From assembly GCF_009769385.1 (NCBI RefSeq), contig NZ_VKAB01000035.1:1-64000 (forward strand): a DNA stretch of 64,000 bases. Reading direction: 5' to 3'. Source of the DNA: Saccharothrix deserti. Lineage in GTDB: Bacteria > Actinomycetota > Actinomycetes > Mycobacteriales > Pseudonocardiaceae. A model generated the notes under the pieces. It had not been told where the DNA came from. It searched no databases and was given only the letters and a program-made list of their open reading frames with translations. A program made the translations under genes and the position numbers. Every line of letters begins with the position of its first letter. Position 1 is the first letter of the stretch. Below are positions 3,467-62,424 of this stretch, piece after piece.

Positions 3467-4834
3467 ATGACCGACCTGCTGCACCTGCACGCCGATCGGC
3501 AGAGTGGGTGTCTGCCGTTGCGCGGGTCCCGCGAGATCCAGGGCAACGTGCTGGCCGCGTTCAACAAGGACCACCAGCAGTTCCGCTTCGTCCGCTTCAC
3601 CGACGCCAAGGCGGCCCGCACCTGGTTGGCCGCCCTGCTCGGCCACATCGCCGTCACGGCCGACGTGGAGGACTTCAACGAGGCGTTCTCCCTCGCCCGC
3701 ACGATGTTCGGCAACGACCCGGCCAACATGCGGGCCACGTGGACGAACGTGTCCCTCACCCCTGAGGGCGTCGTCGCGTTGAGCATCAACCCGGACGCGA
3801 CGGAACAGGACCTCCGCGACCACTTCCCGCACACCGCCGAACAAGCGGCCCCGGCCAACGGCGACACCGGCGACTCGGCGCCGCGGAACTGGCTGTTCGG
3901 TCGCGCGGACCAGCACGTCCACGCCGTGGTGACGGTCGCGTCCGACTCGGCGGACCGCCTCGCGAGCACCGGCCAGACCCTGGACCTGCTCGACACCCTC
4001 CTCGGCGTCACGGTGGTCCACGAGCAGCAGGGCGACACCCTCCCCGGCAGCCGGCGCGGTCGCGAGCACTTCGGCTACAAGGACGGCATCTCGCAGCCCG
4101 GCATCCGGGACTTCCACCAGGAGGACCTGGACAGGCCCGGCCACCGCCTCGGCCACGCGGGCGCGTTGCTGGTCAACCCGGGCGAGTTCGTCTTCGGCCA
4201 CCCGACCGAGTCCGAACGCCCGAAGGCCGCCGCCTGGCTGACCGACGGCTCGATCCAGGTGATCCGCCGCCTCACCCAGGACGTCGAGGGCTGGAACCGG
4301 GCCGTCGAGGACCACGCGAAACGCGCGAACACCGGCCCGGTGGAGATGGGCGCGAAGCTGATCGGCCGCCACAAGGACGGCCGACCGCTCGCCGACACGG
4401 GCCTCAACGACTTCGACTACTCCGACGACCCGAGTGGCACGACGACACCGTGCTCGGCGCACATCCGCAAGACCAACCCGAGGTCGTTCACGCACCGGAC
4501 GCCCCGGCAGCACCGCATCCTGCGCCGGGGCATCCCGTTCGGCCCGACCGACGACGGCGAGTGCGGCCTGGTGTTCGTGGCCCACTGCACGTCGCTGGAG
4601 GAGCAGTTCGAGTTCGTCCAGCAGGCGTGGGCGGGCAACCCGGACTTCGCGGCGGGCGAGCGCGGCGCGCCGACGGGCACCGACCCGGTGATCGGCGGCC
4701 ACGGCCGTGCGACCGTGGCCGGTACCCGTCTGACGTTCGCCCGTTTCGTGCGGACCACCGGTGCGCTGTACGCGCTGGTGCCGTCCGTGAGCACGCTGCG
4801 CCTGCTCGCCGCGGGCCGGGAACTGCCCCGTTAA
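3467..4834 (+). CDS. Dyp-type heme peroxidase
   Basis: A 455-residue protein with the Dyp-peroxidase signature GYKDG (203-207, carrying the distal catalytic Asp) and the proximal heme ligand His332 in CSAHIRKTNPR. These features define dye-decolorizing peroxidases that oxidise phenolic or dye substrates with H2O2. No Tat signal is visible, so it is probably cytoplasmic or encapsulin-loaded; no encapsulin gene is nearby. The start ATG has AGGGGGT 8 bases upstream. The stop overlaps the stop of the convergent isomerase gene by 4 bases. Confidence 0.92.
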   Translation: MTDLLHLHADRQSGCLPLRGSREIQGNVLAAFNKDHQQFRFVRFTDAKAARTWLAALLGHIAVTADVEDFNEAFSLARTMFGNDPANMRATWTNVSLTPEGVVALSINPDATEQDLRDHFPHTAEQAAPANGDTGDSAPRNWLFGRADQHVHAVVTVASDSADRLASTGQTLDLLDTLLGVTVVHEQQGDTLPGSRRGREHFGYKDGISQPGIRDFHQEDLDRPGHRLGHAGALLVNPGEFVFGHPTESERPKAAAWLTDGSIQVIRRLTQDVEGWNRAVEDHAKRANTGPVEMGAKLIGRHKDGRPLADTGLNDFDYSDDPSGTTTPCSAHIRKTNPRSFTHRTPRQHRILRRGIPFGPTDDGECGLVFVAHCTSLEEQFEFVQQAWAGNPDFAAGERGAPTGTDPVIGGHGRATVAGTRLTFARFVRTTGALYALVPSVSTLRLLAAGRELPR

Positions 4835-5664
4835 GGGGTGACCGGGAGTCGGTCGTGGCCGCCGTCCACGACCGGCTCCCACCCCGTGGCGTGCCGCGCC
4901 ACCAGGTCCGCCGCCACCGCGTCGAACGGCCGCGCCCACACCTCCTCGTTGAACACCTCGACCTCGACGTACCCGGTGTACCCGGCGTCGGTGACGAGCG
5001 AGGTCAGCCCGACGAGGTCGATGTGCCCGTCACCGGGCAGCCCGCGCCCGAGCAGCACGTCGGCCGGCAGCGGCGTCACCCAGTCGCACACCTGGTAGGA
5101 GTGGATGCGCGAGCCGGCCCGCTTCACGTCGACCGCCAGCGCCGGGTCCCACCACACGTGCAGGGCGTCGACGACCACGCCGACGACCGAGTCCGGGTAC
5201 GGCGAGGCCAACTCCAACGCCTGCCCCAACGTCGACACCACGCCCCGGTCGGCGCAGAACATCGGGTGCATCGGCTCCAACGCCAACCGCACCCCGGCCG
5301 AAGCCGCGTACGGCGCCAACACCTCCAACGCCGACGCGACCCGCGCACGGGCGGCCACGAGGTCCCGGTCCGGCACCCCGCCGGGCACCAGCACCAGGCA
5401 CTGCGCGCCCAGCGCGGCGGTCTCGTCGATCGCCCGCCGGTTGTCGTCCAGCCGCTGGTCCAGCCCGGTGAAGAACCCGCCGCGGCACAGCGACGACACC
5501 TCCAGCCCGGCCGACGCCACCAGCGAAGCCGTCCGCTCCAGCCCGTACTCGGCCACCGGGTCGCGCCACAGCCCGACCGCCGGGATCCCGTTCCGCACGC
5601 ACACCTCGACCACTTCGGGCACGGACGCCCGCTTCACGGTGGCCTGGTTCAGCGACAGCCTCAC
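4831..5664 (-). CDS. Sugar phosphate isomerase/epimerase family protein (TIM barrel)
   Basis: A 277-residue AP-endonuclease-2-like TIM barrel as in IolE/IolI/xylose-isomerase-like enzymes. Metal-site-like residues appear in order: E in ALEPMHP, D in VVDALHVWWD, H in the same segment, and E in YVEVEVFNEE. It starts with GTG inside the DUF993 stop codon (GTGA overlap), indicating translational coupling. It is the last gene of the Gfo/Idh-DUF993-isomerase operon, so it probably isomerises a keto-sugar or inositol-type intermediate (inference). Confidence 0.85.
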   Translation of the reverse strand: MRLSLNQATVKRASVPEVVEVCVRNGIPAVGLWRDPVAEYGLERTASLVASAGLEVSSLCRGGFFTGLDQRLDDNRRAIDETAALGAQCLVLVPGGVPDRDLVAARARVASALEVLAPYAASAGVRLALEPMHPMFCADRGVVSTLGQALELASPYPDSVVGVVVDALHVWWDPALAVDVKRAGSRIHSYQVCDWVTPLPADVLLGRGLPGDGHIDLVGLTSLVTDAGYTGYVEVEVFNEEVWARPFDAVAADLVARHATGWEPVVDGGHDRLPVTP

Positions 5665-6779
5665 GTCAGCACGTCCAGCAGTCGTCCCCACCGCGCCGCC
5701 GCCAGGTCCGGGTCGGGCAGCAGCCCGGCCAGGTCCGCCAACCGCAGCGCCTCACCGAGGTGCACCACGTCCCGGGCCGACTGCAACCCGCCGACCATGC
5801 CGAACGCGTCCTGGAACCCGCCCAGCCAGGCCAGGAACACCACACCGGTCTTGTAGTAGTACGTCGGCGTCCCGAAGAGGTGCCGCGACAACGCCACCGT
5901 CGGCGACAGCACCTCGTGGTACCGGACCAGGTCACCGGCGTCCAACGCGCGCAACGCGGTGGACGCGGCCGGCGCGATGGCGTCGAAGATCCCCAGCAGC
6001 GCGTCGCTGTACCCGACGGAGTCCCCGGCGATCAGCTCCGGGTAGTTGAAGTCGTCGCCGGTGTAGCACCGCACGCCGGCGGGCAGCGCCCGCCGCAACT
6101 CCACCTCGTGCGCGGCGTCCAGCAGCGACACCTTCACCCCGTCCACCTTGTCCGGGTACGCCTTGATCAGGTCCAGGAAGTGCCCGGTCGCCGTGGGGAC
6201 GTCCGACGAACCCCAGTAGCCCTCCAGCGCCGGGTCGAACGCCGTGCCCAGCCAGTGCAGGATCACCGGCTGGTCGACCTCCTCCAGCAGCGCCCCGTAC
6301 ACCTTCTGGTAGTCCTCGGGCCCACGCGCCGCCGCGGCCAGCTTCCGGCTGCACATCAGGATCGGCTGCGCGCCCGCCTCGACGACGGCCGCCAACTGCT
6401 CCCGGTACGCCGTCAACGGGTCCGCGGTGTCGTGGTCGGTGCCGACGCCCGCCGACAACCGGCCGCCGCCGATCGCGGCGCTGCGCCGGATCAGCTCCAA
6501 CGCCGTGTCCCAGTCCAGGCCCATGCCGCGCTGCGCGGTGTCCATGGCCTCGGCGACGCCGAAACCGTGCTCCCACAACCGCACCCGGTAGGCCAGCGTC
6601 GCGTCCCAGTCCAGCACGGCTGGCGCGCCGGGGACGTTGCCGCCGAACGGGTCGGCCACCACGTGCGCCGCCGCGAACGCGACCCGCGACTCGAACGGCC
6701 CCTTCTCCCACACCCGCGGCGAACGCAGCCGGTGCTTCCGGAACGCCCCGTCCCGGCCGGGCAACATCACGGAGGTCAC
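5661..6779 (-). CDS. DUF993 / dihydrodipicolinate synthase-like aldolase
   Basis: A 372-residue protein of the DUF993 family, which resembles class I aldolases (DapA superfamily). The start is chosen as the GTG overlapping the upstream stop (GTGA), giving VTSVMLPGRDG; a second in-frame ATG follows four codons later. The conserved stretch ILHWLGTAFDPALEGYW and a candidate Schiff-base Lys in VDGVKVSLLD are visible. The conserved position between a Gfo/Idh oxidoreductase and a sugar isomerase fits a catabolic aldolase/lyase step on an oxidised sugar (inference). Codon use is uniform with its neighbours. Confidence 0.82.
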   Translation of the reverse strand: MTSVMLPGRDGAFRKHRLRSPRVWEKGPFESRVAFAAAHVVADPFGGNVPGAPAVLDWDATLAYRVRLWEHGFGVAEAMDTAQRGMGLDWDTALELIRRSAAIGGGRLSAGVGTDHDTADPLTAYREQLAAVVEAGAQPILMCSRKLAAAARGPEDYQKVYGALLEEVDQPVILHWLGTAFDPALEGYWGSSDVPTATGHFLDLIKAYPDKVDGVKVSLLDAAHEVELRRALPAGVRCYTGDDFNYPELIAGDSVGYSDALLGIFDAIAPAASTALRALDAGDLVRYHEVLSPTVALSRHLFGTPTYYYKTGVVFLAWLGGFQDAFGMVGGLQSARDVVHLGEALRLADLAGLLPDPDLAAARWGRLLDVLT

Positions 6780-15776: not shown

Positions 15777-16649
15777 TTGTCCGAAGCCGAGTGGACCGCG
15801 CGCCGTGACGCGCACGCGGACCGCGTCCGGCGCTGGACCGGCCCGCACCACGAGCGCAAGGCCGCCGGCGTCAAGCACCCCGTGCTGGACTTCCTCTTCT
15901 CGTACTACTCGCAACGCCCGTCCCGGCTGGAACGCTGGCACCCCGGCCCCGGCGTGGTCCTCGAAGGCGACGCGGCGCGCGCCTACCTCAAGTGGCCCGT
16001 CTACAAGCGCACCGACGACGGCGTAACGCTGGACGTGGAGGCGTTCGCGCGGGAACGGGCCAACACGATCGTGTTCGCCGGCCGACTGCTCACCGCCACC
16101 GCCGGCCGCGTGCCCCGACTGGGCTGCTTCGGCTTGCACGAATGGGCGATGGTCTACCGGCAGCAGCCGGAACAGGTGCGGCACAACGCGTGGCCGCTGC
16201 GGCTGGGCAGCACGGGCACCGACCGGGTGGTGGAGTCGCAGCGGGTGCAGTGCGGGCACTTCGACGCGTTCCGCTTCTTCACCCCGGACGCCCGGCCGCG
16301 CAACGCCCTCCAGCCGACCCGCGAGACCCAGGTGGAGCTGGAGCAGCCGGGCTGCCTGCACGCGAACATGGACCTGTTCAAGTGGGCCTACAAGCTCGAC
16401 CCGGCCACCCCGTCCGAGCTGGTCGCGGACTGCTTCGAGCTGGCGCTGCGGATCCGCGAGCTGGACATGCGGGCGAGCCCGTACGACCTGACGGGGCTGG
16501 GCTACCGGCCGGTGCCGATCGAGACGACCGAGGGCCGTGCCGAGTACGTGCGGCAGCAGAGCGCGTTCGCCGAGGCCGCCGCGCCGCTGCGAGCCCGGCT
16601 GATCGAGCTGACCCGGGTGCTGTCGGCCGGTCTCGTCACCGCGGGATGA
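15777..16649 (+). CDS. Putative 3-methyladenine DNA glycosylase (actinobacterial family)
   Basis: A soluble protein of about 290 residues belonging to a conserved actinobacterial family generally annotated as 3-methyladenine DNA glycosylase. The start SEAEWTARRDAHADRVRRWT, the segment KHPVLDFLFSYYS and the QCGHFDAFRFFTPDARP block are distinctive. I see no AlkA-type HhH-GPD motif, so the activity is by family label only. TTG 15777 is favoured by GGGGG 5 bases upstream; an earlier in-frame GTG at 15702 would add 25 residues of poor conservation. Confidence 0.75.
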   Translation: MSEAEWTARRDAHADRVRRWTGPHHERKAAGVKHPVLDFLFSYYSQRPSRLERWHPGPGVVLEGDAARAYLKWPVYKRTDDGVTLDVEAFARERANTIVFAGRLLTATAGRVPRLGCFGLHEWAMVYRQQPEQVRHNAWPLRLGSTGTDRVVESQRVQCGHFDAFRFFTPDARPRNALQPTRETQVELEQPGCLHANMDLFKWAYKLDPATPSELVADCFELALRIRELDMRASPYDLTGLGYRPVPIETTEGRAEYVRQQSAFAEAAAPLRARLIELTRVLSAGLVTAG

Positions 16650-16747
16650 CTCCGAGTGACTTCACCCACTTCACAGTTGTCACCTGTTAGCGTGACGCCG
16701 GTCGGGATTCGCCAGCCGTAGTCGGTCGGACGCTGAGAGGGAAGACG

Positions 16748-18526
16748 ATGTCTCGACACCGCGCGCTGCGGACGAAGGTGCGGCGCGGCATCGCGACGTG
16801 GCCGGTGGCCATCGTCGCCCTGGTGGTCCTCGTGGTGCTCGGTTGGCTCGGCTGGAGCTGGGTCGGCGGCATCCTGGAACGCCGTGCCGCCGCACAGGCG
16901 GGTGAGTGCAACGAGGGCGAGGCGCTGCTCCGGGTCTCCGCGACGCCCAACGTCGCCGAGGCGGTCAAGCAGGTCGCCGAGGCGTGGAGCAAGCAGCGGC
17001 CCGTCGTCTACGACCACTGCATCCAGGTCGAGGTCCAGTCGATCGACTCCGAGGTCGTGCTGCAAGGCCTCACCCAGGGCTGGGACACCGCCAAGCTCGG
17101 CGAACGCCCGCACGCGTGGATCACCGACTCGATGCTGTGGGCGAACCGGCTCGGCGCGCAGAACGCCACCCTGCTCGGCGCGGCGCCCGAGTCGATCGCG
17201 GCGAGCCCCGTGCTGCTCGCCCTGCACCAGGAGCCGGCGCAGGCCGTGCAGTCCGGTGCCGGGTTCCGGTGGACCGACCTGCCGGACCTGACCAGCGCGG
17301 CGGACGGTTGGGGCAGGTTCGGGCACCCCGAGTGGGGCCAGTTCAAGGTGGCGATGCCCGATCCGGCGACGAACTCGGCCACCGCGATGGCCGTGCAGTC
17401 GGCGCTGGCCGGCGCGAGCCCCGACGGCAAGGGGCCCGTCACCACCGAGATGCTGGCGCTCGACCCGGTGAAGAGCACGATGAGCAGGCTGGCGTCGTCC
17501 AAGCCGGCGCAGACGCCCGTCGGCACGTGGGAGGCGTTGAACCAGCTGTCCGGCGACACCGCCGTGAACGCGGCCGGGTTCAGCGCGGTGCCGGTGTTCG
17601 AGGTGGACCTGTACCGGCACAACACCGGCAAGGACAGCGGCACGGCGCCCGCGCAGCCCCTGTACGGGGTGGCGGCGGGCGGGCCGACGCCGATCGCGGA
17701 CTTCCCGTTCGTGCCGCTGGCGGGCGACTGGGTCGGTGAGGCCCAGGTGCGCGCGTCGCAGGCGTTCCGGGAGTTCCTGCGCGAGGACGACCAGCAGAAG
17801 ATCCTGGCCGGCGCGGGCCTGCGGGTCGACGCCACCACCGAGCGGCCCAAGCCGTCGCCCGGCATCCGCTGGGCCGCCGTCACCGACATGCTCACGCCCG
17901 CCGACGCCAACACGACCCAGCAGATCTCGGCCGCGTGGGCGACCGCGGACAACGGCCAGGTCGTCACCGTGCTGGTGGACACGTCGAAGTCGATGGAGGA
18001 ACCCGGCGGCGAGGGCCGCAGCCGGATGGACTGGGTGAAGCAGGCGCTGTCCGGGCAGGTCAACCGGTCGCTGTCCGGGTCGCTCGGGCTGTGGGAGTTC
18101 TCCCGGCAGCTCGACGGCGACAAGCCGTACCGGCAGGTCGTGCCCACCGGGCCGGTCGCCGGGCAGCGGCAGGCGCTGCTGGACGGCGTGGCCGCGCTGA
18201 AGCCGCAGAGCGCCACCCAGCTCTACACCAGCGTGCTCGCGTTGTACGAGCGGATGCTGGCCGACCACCAGGACGGCAAGCGCAACCGGATCGTGGTGCT
18301 CACCGACGGCGTGAACGACGGCGGGCTGACGTTCGAGCAGCTGACGTCGCGGCTCGCGGCGGTCAAGCAGCCGGGCAAGGACGTCGTGATCGACGTCATC
18401 GCGCTCGGCCCCGACCCGGAACGCGAACCGCTGACCGAACTGGCCCGGTCCACCGGCGGCACGCTGTCGGTGGTCGAGGACGGTCGCGGTGTGGACGCCG
18501 CCCTCGGCCAACTCCTGTCCAGCTAG
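16748..18526 (+). CDS. Membrane-anchored substrate-binding and VWA domain protein
   Basis: A 592-residue protein: basic N-terminus, one transmembrane helix (about residues 19-40), an extracellular solute-binding-protein-like domain (about 55-385, from ECNEGEALLRVSATPNVAEAVK) and a von Willebrand A domain (about 405-590) with an intact MIDAS DTSKSM and TDGVNDGG. The fusion of a binding protein with VWA occurs across actinomycetes; its role is not established. No transporter genes adjoin it. ATG 16748 follows GAGAGGGAAG. Confidence 0.82.
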   Translation: MSRHRALRTKVRRGIATWPVAIVALVVLVVLGWLGWSWVGGILERRAAAQAGECNEGEALLRVSATPNVAEAVKQVAEAWSKQRPVVYDHCIQVEVQSIDSEVVLQGLTQGWDTAKLGERPHAWITDSMLWANRLGAQNATLLGAAPESIAASPVLLALHQEPAQAVQSGAGFRWTDLPDLTSAADGWGRFGHPEWGQFKVAMPDPATNSATAMAVQSALAGASPDGKGPVTTEMLALDPVKSTMSRLASSKPAQTPVGTWEALNQLSGDTAVNAAGFSAVPVFEVDLYRHNTGKDSGTAPAQPLYGVAAGGPTPIADFPFVPLAGDWVGEAQVRASQAFREFLREDDQQKILAGAGLRVDATTERPKPSPGIRWAAVTDMLTPADANTTQQISAAWATADNGQVVTVLVDTSKSMEEPGGEGRSRMDWVKQALSGQVNRSLSGSLGLWEFSRQLDGDKPYRQVVPTGPVAGQRQALLDGVAALKPQSATQLYTSVLALYERMLADHQDGKRNRIVVLTDGVNDGGLTFEQLTSRLAAVKQPGKDVVIDVIALGPDPEREPLTELARSTGGTLSVVEDGRGVDAALGQLLSS

Positions 18527-19506
18527 CCCGTGCTCTGGACGGTGATGACGACCTTGCCGCGGGCGTGGCCCTCGGCGACGTGCTGGACGGCCCGTGCCGC
18601 GTCGCTCAACGGGTAGGTGCCGCCGACAACGGTCCCGAGCTGCCCGGATTCCATCATGCGGGCCATTTCCTCCAGGTCGGCGCGCGTGGTCCGGGCGAGC
18701 AGCGGCGCGAGCCGGCGGCGCGTGAACGGCGAGAGCGCGGCGGCCTTGATCGTGTGCCGGGCCCCACCGAGCCACTTGCCGCCGTTGCCGCTGTTGGGCA
18801 TGAGCACACCGGTGGGCGTGAGCAGCTTCAGCAGCGCGGAGAACGGGTGGTTCATGACGTGGTCGAGGATCGCGTCGTACCGCTCGGAGGTGTGCGTGAA
18901 GTCCTCGCGGGAGTAGTCCACGACGTGGTCCGCGCCCAGTTCCCGCACCAGCTCGACGTTGCGCGGGCCGCACACCGCGGTCACCTCCGCGCCCATCGAC
19001 TTCGCGATCTGCACCGCGAACGTGCCGATGCCGCCGGACGAGCCGTTGACCAGCAGCCGCTGCCCGGAGGACAGGCGTGCGGCGTCACGCAGCATCTGCA
19101 ACGCGGTGATCCCGGCCAGCGGCACGCCCGCGGCCTCCTCGAACGTCACGTTCGCGGGCTTGGCGACCAGGTCGTCCTCGTCGGCGCACGCGTACTCGGC
19201 GAACGTCGCCCGGCCCTCGCCGAACACCTCGTCACCGGGCTTGAACCGGGTGACCGCGCTGCCGACGGCCTCCACGGTGCCGGCGACGTCCGTGCCGGGT
19301 ACGGGCCGCTTCGTCGGCCTGCGCAACCCGAAGCCCGCCAGGCGCACCATGTACGGGGTGCCGGTCATGATGAACCAGTCGGCGATGTTCACCCCCGCCG
19401 CGTGCACGCGCACCAGCACCTGCTTCCCGCCCGGCTCGGGCCGGTCGACTTCCCGGAAGTCCAGCACGTCCGGCTCGCCGTACTCGTCGTGCACGATCGC
19501 CTTCAT
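18523..19506 (-). CDS. NAD(P)-dependent medium-chain oxidoreductase (quinone reductase-like)
   Basis: A 327-residue MDR-superfamily enzyme without zinc ligands. The GroES-like N-terminal domain has VRVHAAGVNIADWFIMTG, and the nucleotide-binding motif NGSSGGIGTFAVQIAKSMGA lies near residue 145. It starts 2 bases after the stop of the small membrane-protein gene (TGAccATG, ribosome site GGAG), so it is the third gene of the ArsR operon. Likely reduces a quinone or enone with NADPH (inference). Confidence 0.87.
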   Translation of the reverse strand: MKAIVHDEYGEPDVLDFREVDRPEPGGKQVLVRVHAAGVNIADWFIMTGTPYMVRLAGFGLRRPTKRPVPGTDVAGTVEAVGSAVTRFKPGDEVFGEGRATFAEYACADEDDLVAKPANVTFEEAAGVPLAGITALQMLRDAARLSSGQRLLVNGSSGGIGTFAVQIAKSMGAEVTAVCGPRNVELVRELGADHVVDYSREDFTHTSERYDAILDHVMNHPFSALLKLLTPTGVLMPNSGNGGKWLGGARHTIKAAALSPFTRRRLAPLLARTTRADLEEMARMMESGQLGTVVGGTYPLSDAARAVQHVAEGHARGKVVITVQSTG

Positions 19507-56428: not shown

Positions 56429-59224
56429 CTAAGCGCGCCCGTCCAGGACGCGGGCCAGTTCCAGGCGCGAGGACACGTGCAGCTTGGCGTAGATGCGGGA
56501 CAGGTAGACCTCGATCGTGCGCGGGCTGTAGTGCAGAGCTGCGGCGATGTCTCGGTTGCGCATGCCTTGTTGCACCAGTCGGGCGACGTTCTCCTCCGCC
56601 TCGGTGAGCACACCCGGCGCTTTGGCGCGAGCGCGCGGCACCTTCGCGCCCAACTCTCTCAGCCGGCCGCCGGTCTGGCGGCGCAGGCCGTGGGCGCCCA
56701 GTTTTTGGAATACTGCATACGCTTCCAGGAGTTCGGGCACGGCGGCGCGGTCGACCAGACCGAGCGCCAGCTGCGCCCGTGCCTTCTCGAACACCAGGCC
56801 GCCCGTCTCGGCTTCGCGCACGGCCTCGCGCAGCACGACGGCGTCCCGCTCGGCCAGACCGGTCACCCGGCGGACGGTCGTGCGGGTCCACGGCGCCACC
56901 CGATCCGCCGACACGACGTGCAGGTGCTTCACGGTCTGCCGCGCCTCTTCCACCCGACCGTGTGCCAAGTCCAACTCGATCAGGCGACCCAGCAGCACGC
57001 AGCTGTACGCGGTCATGCCGTCGTCGTCCACGGCCTCGACCAGGGTGGTCCGGGCGCCCTCCGCGTCACCGCGCGCGGCCAGGTAGCCGGCCATCGCCAA
57101 GGCGTGCAGGCGGGACATGTTCGGGCTGGTCGGCGGGTCGAGCGCGGCCAGGCGGGCGGCGATGTCCAGCTCGCCGCGCCACGTCCGCACCTCCAGTTCG
57201 ATCGCGCGCAGGCCGTCCAGCATCATCAGCTCCTGCCGCGACTCCAGCTCGGCAGCGGCCCGACCGACGCGCTCCAGGCACGCCTCCCACGCGCCGCCGA
57301 ACCAGTCCAGCGCCACCCGCGCCATCTCCAACTCACCGCGGAACGCGTGGCCGCCCGTCCGTTCCCGCAGCTCCTCCGCCCGCCGCAGCCGCCACGACGC
57401 GTCGTGCACCAGGCCCGCGAGGGCACCGGTCGACGCGCCGACGGCCAGCGCCTGCAACTCCAGCATCGGCTGACCGGCGGCCGAACGCAGGGAGCGGTTG
57501 GCGTAGTCCACCGTCTTGTCGTGCCGGAACAGCATCGACGTGATCACGGCCAACCGGTCGAACACCACCACGCCCTCGGCGGCGGACGTGAACGGCATGG
57601 CCTCGATCCGGTCGGCGGCGGCCAGGGCTTCGGCGTGACGTCCGGCGAACACCAGCAACAGCGCGCGCTGCGCGTGCAACGCGGCCGGTGCGCCGTCGGC
57701 ATGTGCCTTCCCCTCGGCTGCTTTCCCCTCGGCCGGCACCTCCACCGGCACCTCCGCGTCGGCCAGGCGCAACGCCTCGGCGAGCCGGCCGACGAGGAAC
57801 AGGCTGGTCAGCACGACGACCGCGCACCGCGACCGTTCCGGGCCGGGCGGCAGGGCGTCGAGGGCGGCCAGGCCGGGCGCGATCGCGGCGGCCGGTCGGG
57901 ACGCGTGCGCCAGCGCCCGGCACTGCGAGGCCAGCAGCCCGGCCCGTTCCGGCGCGGCCACCGGCAGCAGTTCCAACGCCCGCGCGCACAACGCCGCCGC
58001 CGTCTCCGGCGCGGTGGTGCGGTTGGCGGCGGCGGCCTGGGCCATCACCCGGACGGCGCGCAGGTCACCGGGCGGCGCGGACTCGGCCAGGTGCCAGGCC
58101 AGCTCCATCTCGTCCACGGCCAGGCCGCGCGAGCGGTCGTCCAGCAGCCGGGCGCTGATCAGGCTGTGCAGGTGACGGCGTTGGGCGGGGCCGATCTCCT
58201 GGTACAGCGCCTCGCCGACCAGGGCGTGCGAGAACCGGTAGCCGCGATCTTCGTCGCGGACCACGATGTGCGCGCGCAGCAACTCGTCGAACGCGTCCAC
58301 CACGGTGTGCTCGGGCAGCGACGACACCCGGGCGAGCAGCCCGATCTGGTCGAGCCGCACCCGCCGGAAGATCGACACCGCGCGGGCGACCGCCCTGGTG
58401 TCCCGGTCCAGCGGCGCGACCCGGCGCAGCACGGCTTCCCGCCTGGTCAGCCGGATCGCCGACGGTGACACCGTCAGCCGGGCCCGGTTGCCGTCCACCG
58501 CCACCAGGTCCAGCTCGCGCAGCGACCGGGCGATCTCCACCGCGAAGAACGGGTTGCCGTCCGCGCGCTGGTGCACCTCGTGCGCCAAGCCGTCGTCCAC
58601 CGGCGTGCCCAGCACGGTCTCCACGATCCGCGCCACGTCACCGCCGCTCAACGGGGCCAGTCGCACGCGCACCACCTCGGCGTGCCGTTCGAGCCGGTCC
58701 AGCAGTTCCTCGACACCGGGGTTGTGGTGGTGCGCGCGGACGGCGGTGATCAGCACCAGCGGCGCGGCGGTGACCCGGCGCAGCACCACGGCGAGCATGG
58801 CCAGCGAGTCGTCGTCCACCTGGTCGAGGTCGTCCAGCACGAGTGCGGCGGGACGTTCGGCGGTGAGGCCGGTGAGCACGCGGGCGACCAGTTCGCAGGA
58901 CCGGCCGAACCAGGTGGCGTCGGGGACCTCGGTGAGGTCGAGCGCGTCGGTGTGGGGCCGCAGTGCCGTCGCCACCGCCGCGTACGGGATGCGCCTGCTG
59001 ACGTCGTCCGACTCGGCCGCCGCCACCGCGCAACCCCGGTCGCGCAACCGGCGGCACGCCTCGGCCAGCAGGCTCGACTTGCCGATCCCCGGCTCACCGG
59101 ACACCACGACGGTCACCAACCCGGCAGCCGGCACGCGGTCGACCGCCTCGAACACGGCCGCCAGTTCGTCTTCCCGGCCGAAGAAGCCGGTGCCGAAGAA
59201 GCTCCTGCCGAAAGAGGAGGGCAA
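56429..59224 (-). CDS. Large ATP-binding LuxR family regulator (LAL type)
   Basis: A 931-residue regulator: AAA/NACHT-like ATPase with Walker A GEPGIGKSS (43-51) and Walker B LVLDDLDQVDDDSL near residue 128, a long TPR-like helical middle, and a C-terminal LuxR HTH (about 870-931, LTEAEENVARLVQQGMRNRDIAAALHYSPRTIEVYLSRIYAKL in pieces). TTG 59224 is set by GGGAGGT 8 bases upstream. LAL regulators often govern secondary metabolism or catabolism; no biosynthetic cluster is adjacent, so the target is open. Confidence 0.9.
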   Translation of the reverse strand: MPSSFGRSFFGTGFFGREDELAAVFEAVDRVPAAGLVTVVVSGEPGIGKSSLLAEACRRLRDRGCAVAAAESDDVSRRIPYAAVATALRPHTDALDLTEVPDATWFGRSCELVARVLTGLTAERPAALVLDDLDQVDDDSLAMLAVVLRRVTAAPLVLITAVRAHHHNPGVEELLDRLERHAEVVRVRLAPLSGGDVARIVETVLGTPVDDGLAHEVHQRADGNPFFAVEIARSLRELDLVAVDGNRARLTVSPSAIRLTRREAVLRRVAPLDRDTRAVARAVSIFRRVRLDQIGLLARVSSLPEHTVVDAFDELLRAHIVVRDEDRGYRFSHALVGEALYQEIGPAQRRHLHSLISARLLDDRSRGLAVDEMELAWHLAESAPPGDLRAVRVMAQAAAANRTTAPETAAALCARALELLPVAAPERAGLLASQCRALAHASRPAAAIAPGLAALDALPPGPERSRCAVVVLTSLFLVGRLAEALRLADAEVPVEVPAEGKAAEGKAHADGAPAALHAQRALLLVFAGRHAEALAAADRIEAMPFTSAAEGVVVFDRLAVITSMLFRHDKTVDYANRSLRSAAGQPMLELQALAVGASTGALAGLVHDASWRLRRAEELRERTGGHAFRGELEMARVALDWFGGAWEACLERVGRAAAELESRQELMMLDGLRAIELEVRTWRGELDIAARLAALDPPTSPNMSRLHALAMAGYLAARGDAEGARTTLVEAVDDDGMTAYSCVLLGRLIELDLAHGRVEEARQTVKHLHVVSADRVAPWTRTTVRRVTGLAERDAVVLREAVREAETGGLVFEKARAQLALGLVDRAAVPELLEAYAVFQKLGAHGLRRQTGGRLRELGAKVPRARAKAPGVLTEAEENVARLVQQGMRNRDIAAALHYSPRTIEVYLSRIYAKLHVSSRLELARVLDGRA

Positions 59225-59281
59225 AAGGCGACCTCCCGTCGTTGGGGTGACTCACCCTACCGATCCCTACCGGAACGCCCC

Positions 59282-60349
59282 TCACCCAACCGGTGGCGGT
59301 CCGGCCAGCCGAGTCAACGCGTGGTAGACCTCCCGGGGCTCGGGAATCTGCTGCCACGCCGGGTGCGAGTCCGGCATCTGGGCAAGGGCACGCCTCATCC
59401 GCTTGCGGTCCTTGTCCCGACTCATTCCCCTCATCTTGCGGAATGCACCCGCATTGAGCGCGATCTGACCGAGGACCGCAATGTCCTCACGATGGCGGTC
59501 GGGATCCCTGGAGTCGGCCACCGAGGCCACGGACTTGGCCACGAGCGCGCCGAGAAGGTTGGGACGGCGTACCAAGCCGATGCGATCAGCAAGCCGAACG
59601 GGAAGGCGTTCGCTCCGGATCAACGCCTGGTTCCCGCCGGGCATTTCAACCCCACGACGCCCCGTGGTGGTGGTCGGGATTCGTTGCTGGCGGCCCATCT
59701 CCTCAGGCACCAGCAGGTCGATTCTGGCGGTACCTCGCCGGTATCGATAGCCGTATCCGTCGGCCGTCTCGTCCTCTGCGAACCCTCGCTTCGTCAGCAG
59801 TGCGCTCGCCTGCCGCAGTGCATCGCGATCGAGCCAGACGCCGATGACGATGTCACCGTCAGTGGTTGCCCGCGGGATGGCTTGTCCGTACTCCGCGCTG
59901 ATCAGTGCCACCATCTGGCCGCCGATGAGCGACCAATGGCAGTCCAGCCCGTCTTCGAGGTCGAGGATGGTCGACCACGCCGCTTCCTGAGGCGGTGTCA
60001 TAGCCGGTAGTTCGACCGGATCTCGCACGATGTCCACGATCCGAACGGGCAGTTCCTTCGAGAGCTTCCGCCACGCCGCGATGTCCGCCTCGCAGAGCGA
60101 CGGGGGCGACAGCACGAGCCGCTTGAGCGGCTCGATGACAGGCGCCTTGGCATCGAACTCGATCGGCGCGAGGCGGACGTGCCGGACAGCGGCACCGAGC
60201 GCTTCGATGACATGCTCCGGGGCTGCGGCGGTCGCGTCGTCTTCCACCGCCGCCCGGAACGCGGCGTCGAGGTGATCACGGGGTTCGCCGCTGACGACCG
60301 CCAGCGCGTCGAGTACCTCTTTGTTGCCCGGTAGATGTTCGTCAGTCAC
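59282..60349 (-). CDS. Nucleotidyltransferase-fold protein, AbiEii-like candidate toxin
   Basis: A 355-residue protein. Residues about 138-212 carry a minimal-nucleotidyltransferase pattern: LIGGQMVALI (GG 143-144), RATTDGDIVIGV (R160, D164, D166) and RIDLLVPEE (D211), the GG/RxTxDxD/D arrangement used by AbiEii-type enzymes. The first 120 residues and the C-terminal Arg-rich helices are not recognised. GTG 60349 overlaps the upstream HTH gene by 8 bases (GTGACTGA), so the two are translated together. A role as toxin or defence effector is inference from fold and context. Confidence 0.7.
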   Translation of the reverse strand: MTDEHLPGNKEVLDALAVVSGEPRDHLDAAFRAAVEDDATAAAPEHVIEALGAAVRHVRLAPIEFDAKAPVIEPLKRLVLSPPSLCEADIAAWRKLSKELPVRIVDIVRDPVELPAMTPPQEAAWSTILDLEDGLDCHWSLIGGQMVALISAEYGQAIPRATTDGDIVIGVWLDRDALRQASALLTKRGFAEDETADGYGYRYRRGTARIDLLVPEEMGRQQRIPTTTTGRRGVEMPGGNQALIRSERLPVRLADRIGLVRRPNLLGALVAKSVASVADSRDPDRHREDIAVLGQIALNAGAFRKMRGMSRDKDRKRMRRALAQMPDSHPAWQQIPEPREVYHALTRLAGPPPVG

Positions 60350-61076
60350 GCGAAACACGCCCGTCCGCCATCGAATGCAGCAAGTGCCCGAGCAAATCTG
60401 CCCCTGCGTTCCTGGTTCTGGTGTCGTGACTGTCCAGAAGGTCGGTAGCGACCACCAGTCTCGGGACTGCTGACACTCCGTTGACCACGCGTGCTGTGCG
60501 CTGATGCCAACCGAAACCGCTGTCTTCGACATGCAGGACGAGGTTTCCGCGCTCGGACCCGACCAGGAAGAACTCGTCGACGAGCCTGGTCACGTCGGAG
60601 GCACCGATGTAGACCTCGGCCTCGTCCGCGAACGACAGCCCCAGGTCGTGGGGTGCTGACGCGCTGATACCCCCGACCACCACAGCCCTGTCCGCGATCA
60701 ACTCGGCGATGTCGGCAGCGGCGATGCGATAGCGGGCAACCGATGCCCGCTTCCGCATCCACCATCTGTAGATGTCGACACCGTCTGCGACATGTCGCTT
60801 CAGTCGGGCACCCAACCGCGATCGCTCACTGCTGGCCAGCCAGGGTGTGGCCTGTCCGTCCAACAATGCTGCTGCGCTCCACGCGCTCCTCCGCGACAGC
60901 GGGCGACCACGATCCGACGCGACCAAGTCGAGCCGACGCCTCACCGAGTCATCGTCGACGACCCACTGGAATCCGATGCGCCGACCGGTAAGGCCGCCGT
61001 CTTTCAGCAGCGCACGAACACGCGCCGGGTTCACATTCAGGCGCTGTGCCGCTTCACGCACACTCAAGCCTGCCAC
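60342..61076 (-). CDS. HTH-domain partner protein, candidate antitoxin
   Basis: A protein of about 244 residues. The N-terminus (SVREAAQRLNVNPARVRALLKDGGLTGRRIGFQWVV in pieces, residues 5-45) is an excisionase/MerR-type HTH. The remaining 200 residues (for example WWMRKRASVARYRIAAADIAELIADRAVVVGG ... LVVATDLLDSHDTRTRNAGADLL) form an unassigned domain with an AbiEi-like flavour. GTG 61076 is preferred to GTG 61082 because a TACACT -10 ends at 61084, which places transcription start at about 61077 (leaderless). First gene of a two-gene cassette. Confidence 0.68.
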   Translation of the reverse strand: MAGLSVREAAQRLNVNPARVRALLKDGGLTGRRIGFQWVVDDDSVRRRLDLVASDRGRPLSRRSAWSAAALLDGQATPWLASSERSRLGARLKRHVADGVDIYRWWMRKRASVARYRIAAADIAELIADRAVVVGGISASAPHDLGLSFADEAEVYIGASDVTRLVDEFFLVGSERGNLVLHVEDSGFGWHQRTARVVNGVSAVPRLVVATDLLDSHDTRTRNAGADLLGHLLHSMADGRVSRD

Positions 61077-61083
61077 GTACACA

Positions 61084-61089
61084 AGTGTA
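61084..61089 (-). promoter_or_regulatory. -10 element of a leaderless promoter
   Basis: TACACT on the minus strand, 7-8 bases from GTG 61076. The -35 region is weak (TAGCAC at 17-bp spacing). Confidence 0.5.
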
Positions 61090-61230
61090 GCGAAGTCGAT
61101 AGAGAAGTGCTAGCAAGAGGGCTCCGAGCAGTCGGCGGCGGGTTCGGCGGCCCTACCGACTGAGGAATCCCTACTCACGTGTCGCGGCTCACGGTGGTGG
61201 CATGGGGTCGACGACTCACCTGGAGGGCCG

Positions 61231-62424
61231 ATGACTGTCGAGGGCACCTGCGCCGACGCGTTCGCCGAGGTCCGCGCCGAGTTCGAACGCAACTTCGCCG
61301 CGCGGGGCGAGGTCGGGGCGGGCGTGCACGTGACGGTCGACGGCGAGACCGTGGTCGATCTTTGGGGCGGTGACGCGGGCGGGCGGGCTTGGCGCGAGGA
61401 CACGATCACGCACGTGTGGTCGTGCACCAAGGGGGCGACCGCGTTGTGCGCGCACGTGCTGGCGTCGCGGGGTGAGCTGGACCTGGACGCGCCGGTGGTG
61501 CGGTACTGGCCGGAGTTCGGGCAGAACGGCAAGGCCGGGACGTTGGTGCGGCACCTGCTGGCGCACCAGGCAGGGTTGACGGCGTTGCGGGAGCCGGTGC
61601 CGGCGGGCGGGATGTTCGACTGGGAGTCGATGACGGACCTGCTGGCCCGGCAGGAGCCGTTCTGGGTGCCGGGCACGCGGCACGGTTACCACGCGTTGAC
61701 GTTCGGGCACCTGATCGGCGAGGTGATCCGGCGGGTCGCCGGGGTGTCGTTGGCCGAGTTCTTCGAGAAGGAGGTGTCCGGTCCGCTGGGGCTGGACTTC
61801 TGGCTGACGTTGCCGGACGACCTGGAGCCGCTGGTCGCGCCGACCATCCCGGCCGCACTTGGCGAGACCGTGCCCAGCCTGTACGCGGCGGCGATGACCA
61901 GGCCCGAGTCGATGCAGGCGCTGCTGCTGACCAACAACGGCGGGTACATCGAGGCGTCGAACACGCGTGAGGCGCACGCGGCGCTGTACGGCGCGGTCGG
62001 CGGGATGAGCAACGCGCGCGGGCTGGCGCAGATGTACCGGCCGTTGGCGTTGGGCGGCGAGTACAACGGGGTGCGGCTGGTGGACGAGACGCAGGTCCCG
62101 GTCATGTCGGGCGTGGTGTCGGCCGGGTTCGACGAGATGCTGCTCGCGCCGACCCGGTTCTCGCCGGGGTTCCTGAAGTCGGTGGACAACCACTACCTGC
62201 CCGTCGCCGACCAGGGCGTGCTGATGTCCGAGGACGCGTTCGGGCACTCGGGGATGGGCGGCTCACTCGGCTTCGCGGACCCGGTGGCGCGCATGTCGTT
62301 CGGGTACGTGATGACGCAGATGGGGCCGGGTGTGGGCGTCAACGAGCGCGGGCAGTCCCTTGTGGACGCCGTGTACCGGGCGCTGGGCTACCGCCGGGCC
62401 CCGGGCGGCACCTGGTTCCGCTGA
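61231..62424 (+). CDS. Serine hydrolase of the beta-lactamase (class C-like)/esterase family
   Basis: A 397-residue cytosolic protein (no signal peptide) with SCTK at 64-67 as the nucleophile motif and a Tyr in RHGYHALTFGHLIGEVIRR as the second motif, plus HSGMGGSLGFADP near the C-terminus in place of KTG. This is the EstB/lipase-like branch that hydrolyses esters. ATG follows GGAGGG. Convergent with the EthR-like TetR gene, 7 bases between stops. Confidence 0.9.
   Translation: MTVEGTCADAFAEVRAEFERNFAARGEVGAGVHVTVDGETVVDLWGGDAGGRAWREDTITHVWSCTKGATALCAHVLASRGELDLDAPVVRYWPEFGQNGKAGTLVRHLLAHQAGLTALREPVPAGGMFDWESMTDLLARQEPFWVPGTRHGYHALTFGHLIGEVIRRVAGVSLAEFFEKEVSGPLGLDFWLTLPDDLEPLVAPTIPAALGETVPSLYAAAMTRPESMQALLLTNNGGYIEASNTREAHAALYGAVGGMSNARGLAQMYRPLALGGEYNGVRLVDETQVPVMSGVVSAGFDEMLLAPTRFSPGFLKSVDNHYLPVADQGVLMSEDAFGHSGMGGSLGFADPVARMSFGYVMTQMGPGVGVNERGQSLVDAVYRALGYRRAPGGTWFR

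Follow-up and report, generated by a model that had tools for sequence, protein, structure and literature searches.

A pair of overlapping minus-strand genes in a 64,000-nucleotide stretch of DNA from the soil actinobacterium Saccharothrix deserti (contig NZ_VKAB01000035.1, positions 1 to 64,000; referred to here in full as the window) is most probably a two-gene toxin-antitoxin (TA) module of the AbiE/MenAT kind; we put the probability at about 0.82. The first gene encodes a candidate antitoxin and repressor with a helix-turn-helix (HTH) domain, and the second a candidate toxin with a minimal nucleotidyltransferase (NTase) domain. A first-pass annotation made from the letters alone had proposed an AbiE-like TA pair, and this is still the best reading, based on a predicted MenT-like fold, AbiEi_2 matches among relatives, regular pairing, a natural fusion, and a candidate operator. 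Coordinates are in Table 1.

Table 1. Positions of the gene pair, its domains, and its control and boundary elements in the window.
Feature	Positions	Strand	Remarks
NTase toxin candidate gene	59282..60349	-	355 aa, GTG start, 8-bp overlap with antitoxin gene
N-terminal helical domain of toxin, about residues 1-107	60029..60349	-	not in shorter relatives
NTase domain, toxin residues 115-353	59291..60007	-	VIA-align to MenT1, MenT3, JHP933
NTase motifs I-II, G143 G144 ... R160 x S/T162 x D164 x D166	59852..59923	-	81-row alignment
Motif III lysine K272 to motif IV aspartate D289	59483..59536	-	each in 79/81 rows, gap in other 2
Antitoxin/repressor gene (candidate)	60342..61076	-	244 aa from leaderless GTG; 246 aa from GTG at 61080-61082 (60342-61082)
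Excisionase/MerR-type HTH, residues 4-57 of 246-aa form	60912..61073	-
AbiEi-like C-terminal domain, about residues 122-240	60363..60719	-
-10-like hexamer TACACT	61084..61089	-	7 nt before GTG at 61074-61076, leaderless
Candidate autorepression operator, imperfect 13-4-13 inverted repeat	61080..61109	.	8/13 pairs; best consensus site in window
Left 9-bp direct repeat CCCTACCGA, insertion boundary	59255..59263	+
Right 9-bp direct repeat CCCTACCGA	61151..61159	+

The toxin and the HTH protein were found together almost without exception. A single scan across species genomes yielded 189 loci, of which 80 were kept, and an antitoxin profile detected a partner upstream and on the same strand in 77. 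For two of the remaining loci (L033 and L042) the contig ends approximately 100 bases from the start of the locus, and the third (L023) is a partial toxin frame; a toxin lacked its HTH partner in 1 of the 78 loci with room to see one. Homologues that regularly occur alone, which the first-pass annotation had named as evidence that would count against it, were therefore not what we found. Five further pairs from a genome search brought the total to 82, all co-directional. The toxin gene overlaps or abuts the antitoxin gene within 30 nt in 45 pairs (37 by 4 bp) and starts 1-60 nt after it in 32, and five pairs are broken or have an ill-chosen start; these spacings are biased towards closeness, since for each toxin the start closest to the antitoxin stop was taken. 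In the window the two frames share positions 60342-60349, the 8-base overlap described in the first-pass annotation. In one relative (P0037, 470 aa), antitoxin and toxin are fused in a single chain. No other neighbour family was found in more than 4 of the 80 loci, and the named hits are annotated as a 'hypothetical protein' adjoining an 'excisionase family' or HTH protein. Relatives of the toxin are on 26 plasmid records; each of the three that we inspected has an overlapping upstream gene, annotated as HTH in two and as hypothetical in one. The S. deserti genome has one copy of the toxin (E<=0.001), and 13 of 296 genomes in a sample of the phylum, including that of the window, have a toxin match at E<=1e-8.

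The catalytic residues expected of an NTase are conserved in the toxin. The minimal pattern first read from the sequence is present as GG at residues 143-144, RATTDGDI at 160-167, and RIDLL at 210-214. We aligned 81 copies (the alignment and the tree described below omit L006/L009, one broken locus; L002 and L003, duplicates of L010 and L011, are omitted from the alignment, tree, promoter, and spacing counts). G143, G144, D164, and D166 are each found in all 81 copies and D211 in 80. Residue 162 is T in 45 copies and S in 36, and R160, four residues before the aspartate, is kept in 69. Because the motifs are conserved over 81 aligned copies, we conclude that the pattern is not due to chance.

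The predicted NTase fold is closest to the toxins MenT1 and MenT3 of Mycobacterium tuberculosis. The first-pass annotation had named beforehand a housekeeping fold without NTase active-site residues as an outcome that would refute it; instead, the active-site residues are conserved in the protein that gives the fold match. Correspondence between residues of the NTase and of the MenT proteins was assigned by order and spacing, not by residue-by-residue superposition. Foldseek gave 5uvd (Paracoccidioides) alone below E 0.001, and this protein and JHP933 (H. pylori) are NTase-like proteins structurally near the toxin. A search against the sequences of solved structures gave nothing better than E 0.54 (5uvd).

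The candidate antitoxin begins with an excisionase-type HTH, as first proposed. PF12728 (E 6e-6) and the excisionase model TIGR01764 (E 6e-5) both matched, below their curated cut-offs, and PF12728 was found in all 63 aligned relatives (E<=0.1). Excisionase/MerR-type HTH domains are the best matches to this N-terminus; AbiEi_4 was found in 7 of the 63 relatives (E<=0.1; best, 7e-4). AbiEi_2 was found above the Pfam cut-off in antitoxin relatives. Among sequences of solved structures the antitoxin matched Xis (4j2n, E 1e-5); nine other rows had E 0.16 or worse and were judged to be chance, and Foldseek gave no match below E 0.001. We rejected PADLOC mad1/mads_1 (residues 6-49, E 2e-5) and weak excisionase matches in PHROGs as family assignments because they cover the HTH alone.

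The antitoxin gene appears to be transcribed as a leaderless mRNA from a promoter that overlaps a candidate operator. A leaderless promoter had been proposed, and the -10-like hexamer lies 7 nt before the 244-aa start, which matches the NCBI start of a close relative (P0043). Of 79 loci, 55 have the pattern TAnnnT at a distance of 5-8 nt upstream of a candidate start, compared to 7 of 609 random start codons, a contrast that is somewhat inflated because up to eight in-frame offsets were allowed per locus and one per control. (Loci with too little upstream sequence, or with an antitoxin match not starting near the profile start, were omitted from the 79.) Inverted repeats lie over the -10 region in mycobacteria (CACAACTATA-TATAGTTGTG) and in Acidimicrobiia (CATAATACT-AGTATTATG), and a divergent Saccharothrix copy has one farther upstream (CACAATACCCCC-GGGGGTATTGTG). 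The candidate operator in the window agrees with the mycobacterial consensus at 21 of 26 positions when read along the coding strand and at 19 along the opposite one; the runner-up site in the window reaches 16. In 33 of 79 loci none of 40 shuffles gave an upstream repeat as good, and in 34 of 79 the repeat was above the 95th percentile set by 230 control windows; the remaining loci are unremarkable by this measure.

The pair is a small two-gene chromosomal insertion between 9-bp direct repeats. Eight of the 25 genomes examined from the genus have a toxin match. The two genes that flank the pair are adjacent in 15 of the 25; 12 of these sites have approximately 115-145 bp between the matches, and three (G000, G008, G017) have approximately 2 kb containing the pair. 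The sequence CCCTACCGA is at both ends of all three filled sites, and at the empty sites it is found exactly once in seven and with one change, at the junction, in five. Based on this comparison, a 1.9-kb unit either entered an ancestor of the three or exited precisely between the repeats elsewhere. The unit has no recognized gene besides the pair, and a 9-bp repeat on its own cannot name the enzyme. Three other genomes (G003, G012, G022) have divergent, uninterrupted pairs, and in G002 and G004 the antitoxin frame is intact and the toxin is broken.

The computation thus far shows the pairing, the predicted fold, the conserved catalytic residues, the placement of the inverted repeat and the -10 sequence, and the insertion, whereas we infer toxicity, an RNA substrate, a mode of neutralization, repressor binding, and any role in defence or addiction. 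The product of the leaderless first gene would act as a repressor, its excisionase-type HTH binding the inverted repeat over its own promoter, and its AbiEi-like C-terminal domain would neutralize the toxin. The overlapping NTase gene is probably translationally coupled to the first. If the antitoxin were lost or overridden, the NTase would add a nucleotide to an essential RNA and translation would stop. By analogy to MenT1 and MenT3, the target would most likely be the 3' end of tRNA, and neutralization would most likely include antitoxin-induced phosphorylation of T162, the counterpart of T39 in MenT1 and S78 in MenT3.

The pair resembles AbiE of Streptococcus agalactiae in organization and differs from it in the details of the toxin. 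According to the available text of PMC3985639 and PMC7319586, AbiE is also bicistronic and antitoxin-first, with a small overlap (4 nt in AbiE, 8 here), a DNA-binding N-terminus joined to a C-terminal domain (matched here by AbiEi_2 in relatives), inverted repeats at the promoter (imperfect in the window, a candidate operator here), and toxin motifs I-III with hG[G/S]...DxD, Arg, and lysine. However, the GG-to-first-Asp distance is 16 in AbiEii (from G50 and D67 in the same text of PMC3985639) and 19 here, motif IV is +DxxD there and R-[H/Q]-x-x-D here, and the N-terminal domain is extra. Transcription of abiE is described as starting 26 bp before the abiEi start codon, whereas the -10 sequence here lies directly before the start codon. 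The misfit to the textbook AbiEi/AbiEii pair noted at the outset is borne out: the window toxin gave no Pfam family at all up to E 1, including AbiEii/DUF1814 (PF08843), which was found in 1 of 37 toxin relatives at E<=0.1 (E 0.051). A separate locus in the same genome (L112, C75:1341-1982 of G000) matched PF08843 at E 2.6e-20; the model is therefore able to detect members there. The window toxin lacks an Arg seven residues past K272 (compare AbiEii K173/R180), and two metagenomic relatives (P0040 and P0042) have RDWQD at the place of motif IV. We do not class the toxin as AbiEii because two defining features, the Pfam cut-off and motif IV, fail.

With MenA1-MenT1 and MenA3-MenT3 the pair shares a predicted NTase fold with catalytic Asp, Lys, and Asp, and a Ser/Thr two residues before the catalytic Asp (T39/D41 in MenT1). 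It differs in having no AbiEii/DUF1814 match, in the added domain of approximately 107 residues, and in its excisionase-type HTH; in the available descriptions the HTH of MenA3 is winged and MenA1 lacks a DNA-binding domain. TumE-TumA and RelS-RelI, as far as described in the available parts of PMC10584680 and PMC13284704, are different systems. We found no paper in the open-access literature on an excisionase-HTH/NTase TA pair or on a leaderless MenAT. The pair looks like a new, so far unannotated variant within the NTase-toxin TA systems, a distant cousin of AbiE and MenAT.

Several results weigh against a TA module of this kind. Searches of Pfam, NCBIfam, PADLOC, and PHROGs gave no match to the toxin, and a profile comparison with AbiEii-type loci from the same order gave a weak result (38% probability over 33 columns, with a crude AbiEii profile). 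The GG-to-first-Asp spacing is 19 residues in all 81 copies, R160 is replaced in 12, and the first Asp position of motif IV (R285-H286-x-x-D289) is H in 56, Q in 22, D in 1, and a gap in 2. AbiEi_2 in the antitoxin of the window has an E of just 0.026. The promoter repeat of the window itself does not reach significance by shuffling (31 of 40 shuffles were as good), and at 40 of the 79 loci the best repeat was equalled by more than 2 of the 40 shuffles. A second locus in G004 is a broken, shortened toxin that lacks an antitoxin within 2.6 kb. A second locus in G012 and one in G013 are broken antitoxins, and the stretch examined around them gave no toxin match. No relative was found in the phage records or viral contigs searched.

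We weighed these results against explanations in which the NTase is not a toxin. It might modify a small molecule, such as an antibiotic, under its own repressor and serve in resistance or detoxification. This is improbable, given that MenT1 and MenT3 outscored LnuA by 3.3 and 1.7 Z units, that the match continues to toxin residue 352 for MenT3 and 297 for LnuA (also a shorter chain), that Lys and Asp are conserved where DUF1814 has its motifs III and IV, and that the partner has an AbiEi-type domain; a repressor-NTase fusion would also be odd for a resistance gene. A housekeeping regulator-enzyme pair would fit a chromosomal location at the same site in three Saccharothrix species, and is very improbable for genes that are matched in just 8 of 25 genus and 13 of 296 phylum-sample genomes, occur on plasmids, and form an insertion with empty sites. 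The roles could also be swapped as in HEPN-MNT, since the available part of PMC13284704 describes a HEPN toxin countered by a minimal NTase. We give this the least credence of all: no HEPN family is among the matches listed for the HTH protein and its relatives (25 of 32 families for the relatives), the best His column is kept in 40 of 63 relatives with none invariant (although 58 of the 63 contain an R-x4-6-H string somewhere), the HTH gene is first in order, and it is whole where the NTase is broken in G002 and G004.

A further alternative keeps the TA module and has the antitoxin act by sequestration alone (type II), with no induced phosphorylation. It is possible, and we think it falls short of likely: MenA1 also blocks MenT1 by binding (PMC10435456, in the available text) and the fused form is compatible with direct contact, while S or T at residue 162 in 81 of 81 copies points the other way, though this residue may be catalytic as well.

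The toxins of the TA candidate fall into two sizes. Over the 82 pairs, 58 toxins have 234-262 aa, 15 have 333-357 aa, and nine have other lengths (several broken or with an ill-chosen start). The N-terminal domain, with five predicted helices, is a feature of the long toxins. In a tree of the 75 loci with both proteins long enough, these mostly group in a single, well supported clade (14 rows, 12 labelled); a small number of long toxins from mycobacteria and bifidobacteria fall elsewhere, and the distribution requires 5 changes. The label 'long' was given to profile matches starting before position 60, and some long members (L018, L044, L048) therefore lack it. A more speculative proposal, which we consider rather doubtful, is that these are a separate NTase-toxin family in which the N-terminal domain of the long clade (Saccharothrix, mycobacteria, and relatives) chooses its own RNA target, and in which an operator on the -10 of the leaderless antitoxin mRNA would make repression, transcription start, and translation start one element. 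If so, the P0037 fusion would be one polypeptide that is both toxin and its own brake.

The pair is a recurring, mainly actinobacterial TA candidate whose toxin common family collections miss. It could serve to test whether NTase toxins that have dissimilar antitoxins are generally controlled by active-site autophosphorylation, an idea proposed in PMC11375011, and the two toxin sizes and natural fusion are material for study.

Some individual loci had additional features. The L061 and L075 toxins are near-identical (end branches 0 and 0.027) in metagenome-assembled genomes labelled Actinomycetes and Acidobacteriota, due to recent transfer or mis-binning. L075 also has a partial antitoxin-toxin pair (4247-6717) directly upstream of a fuller one. 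Near the pair in L130 (Rhodococcus erythropolis plasmid pBD2) are RAMP superfamily CRISPR-associated and VWA-like domain genes, possibly a defence neighbourhood.

In the window, the immediate neighbours are a LuxR-type AAA_16/GerE regulator (56429-59224, minus strand) and a PF00144 beta-lactamase-family hydrolase (61231-62424, plus strand). The first-pass annotation stated that no mobile or metabolic genes flank the pair; that the pair is itself an insertion could not be seen from the letters alone. Elsewhere in the window, ARAGORN called a tRNA-Arg (anticodon gcg) at 17143-17238, within a long reading frame (16502-18973), which is probably a false positive.
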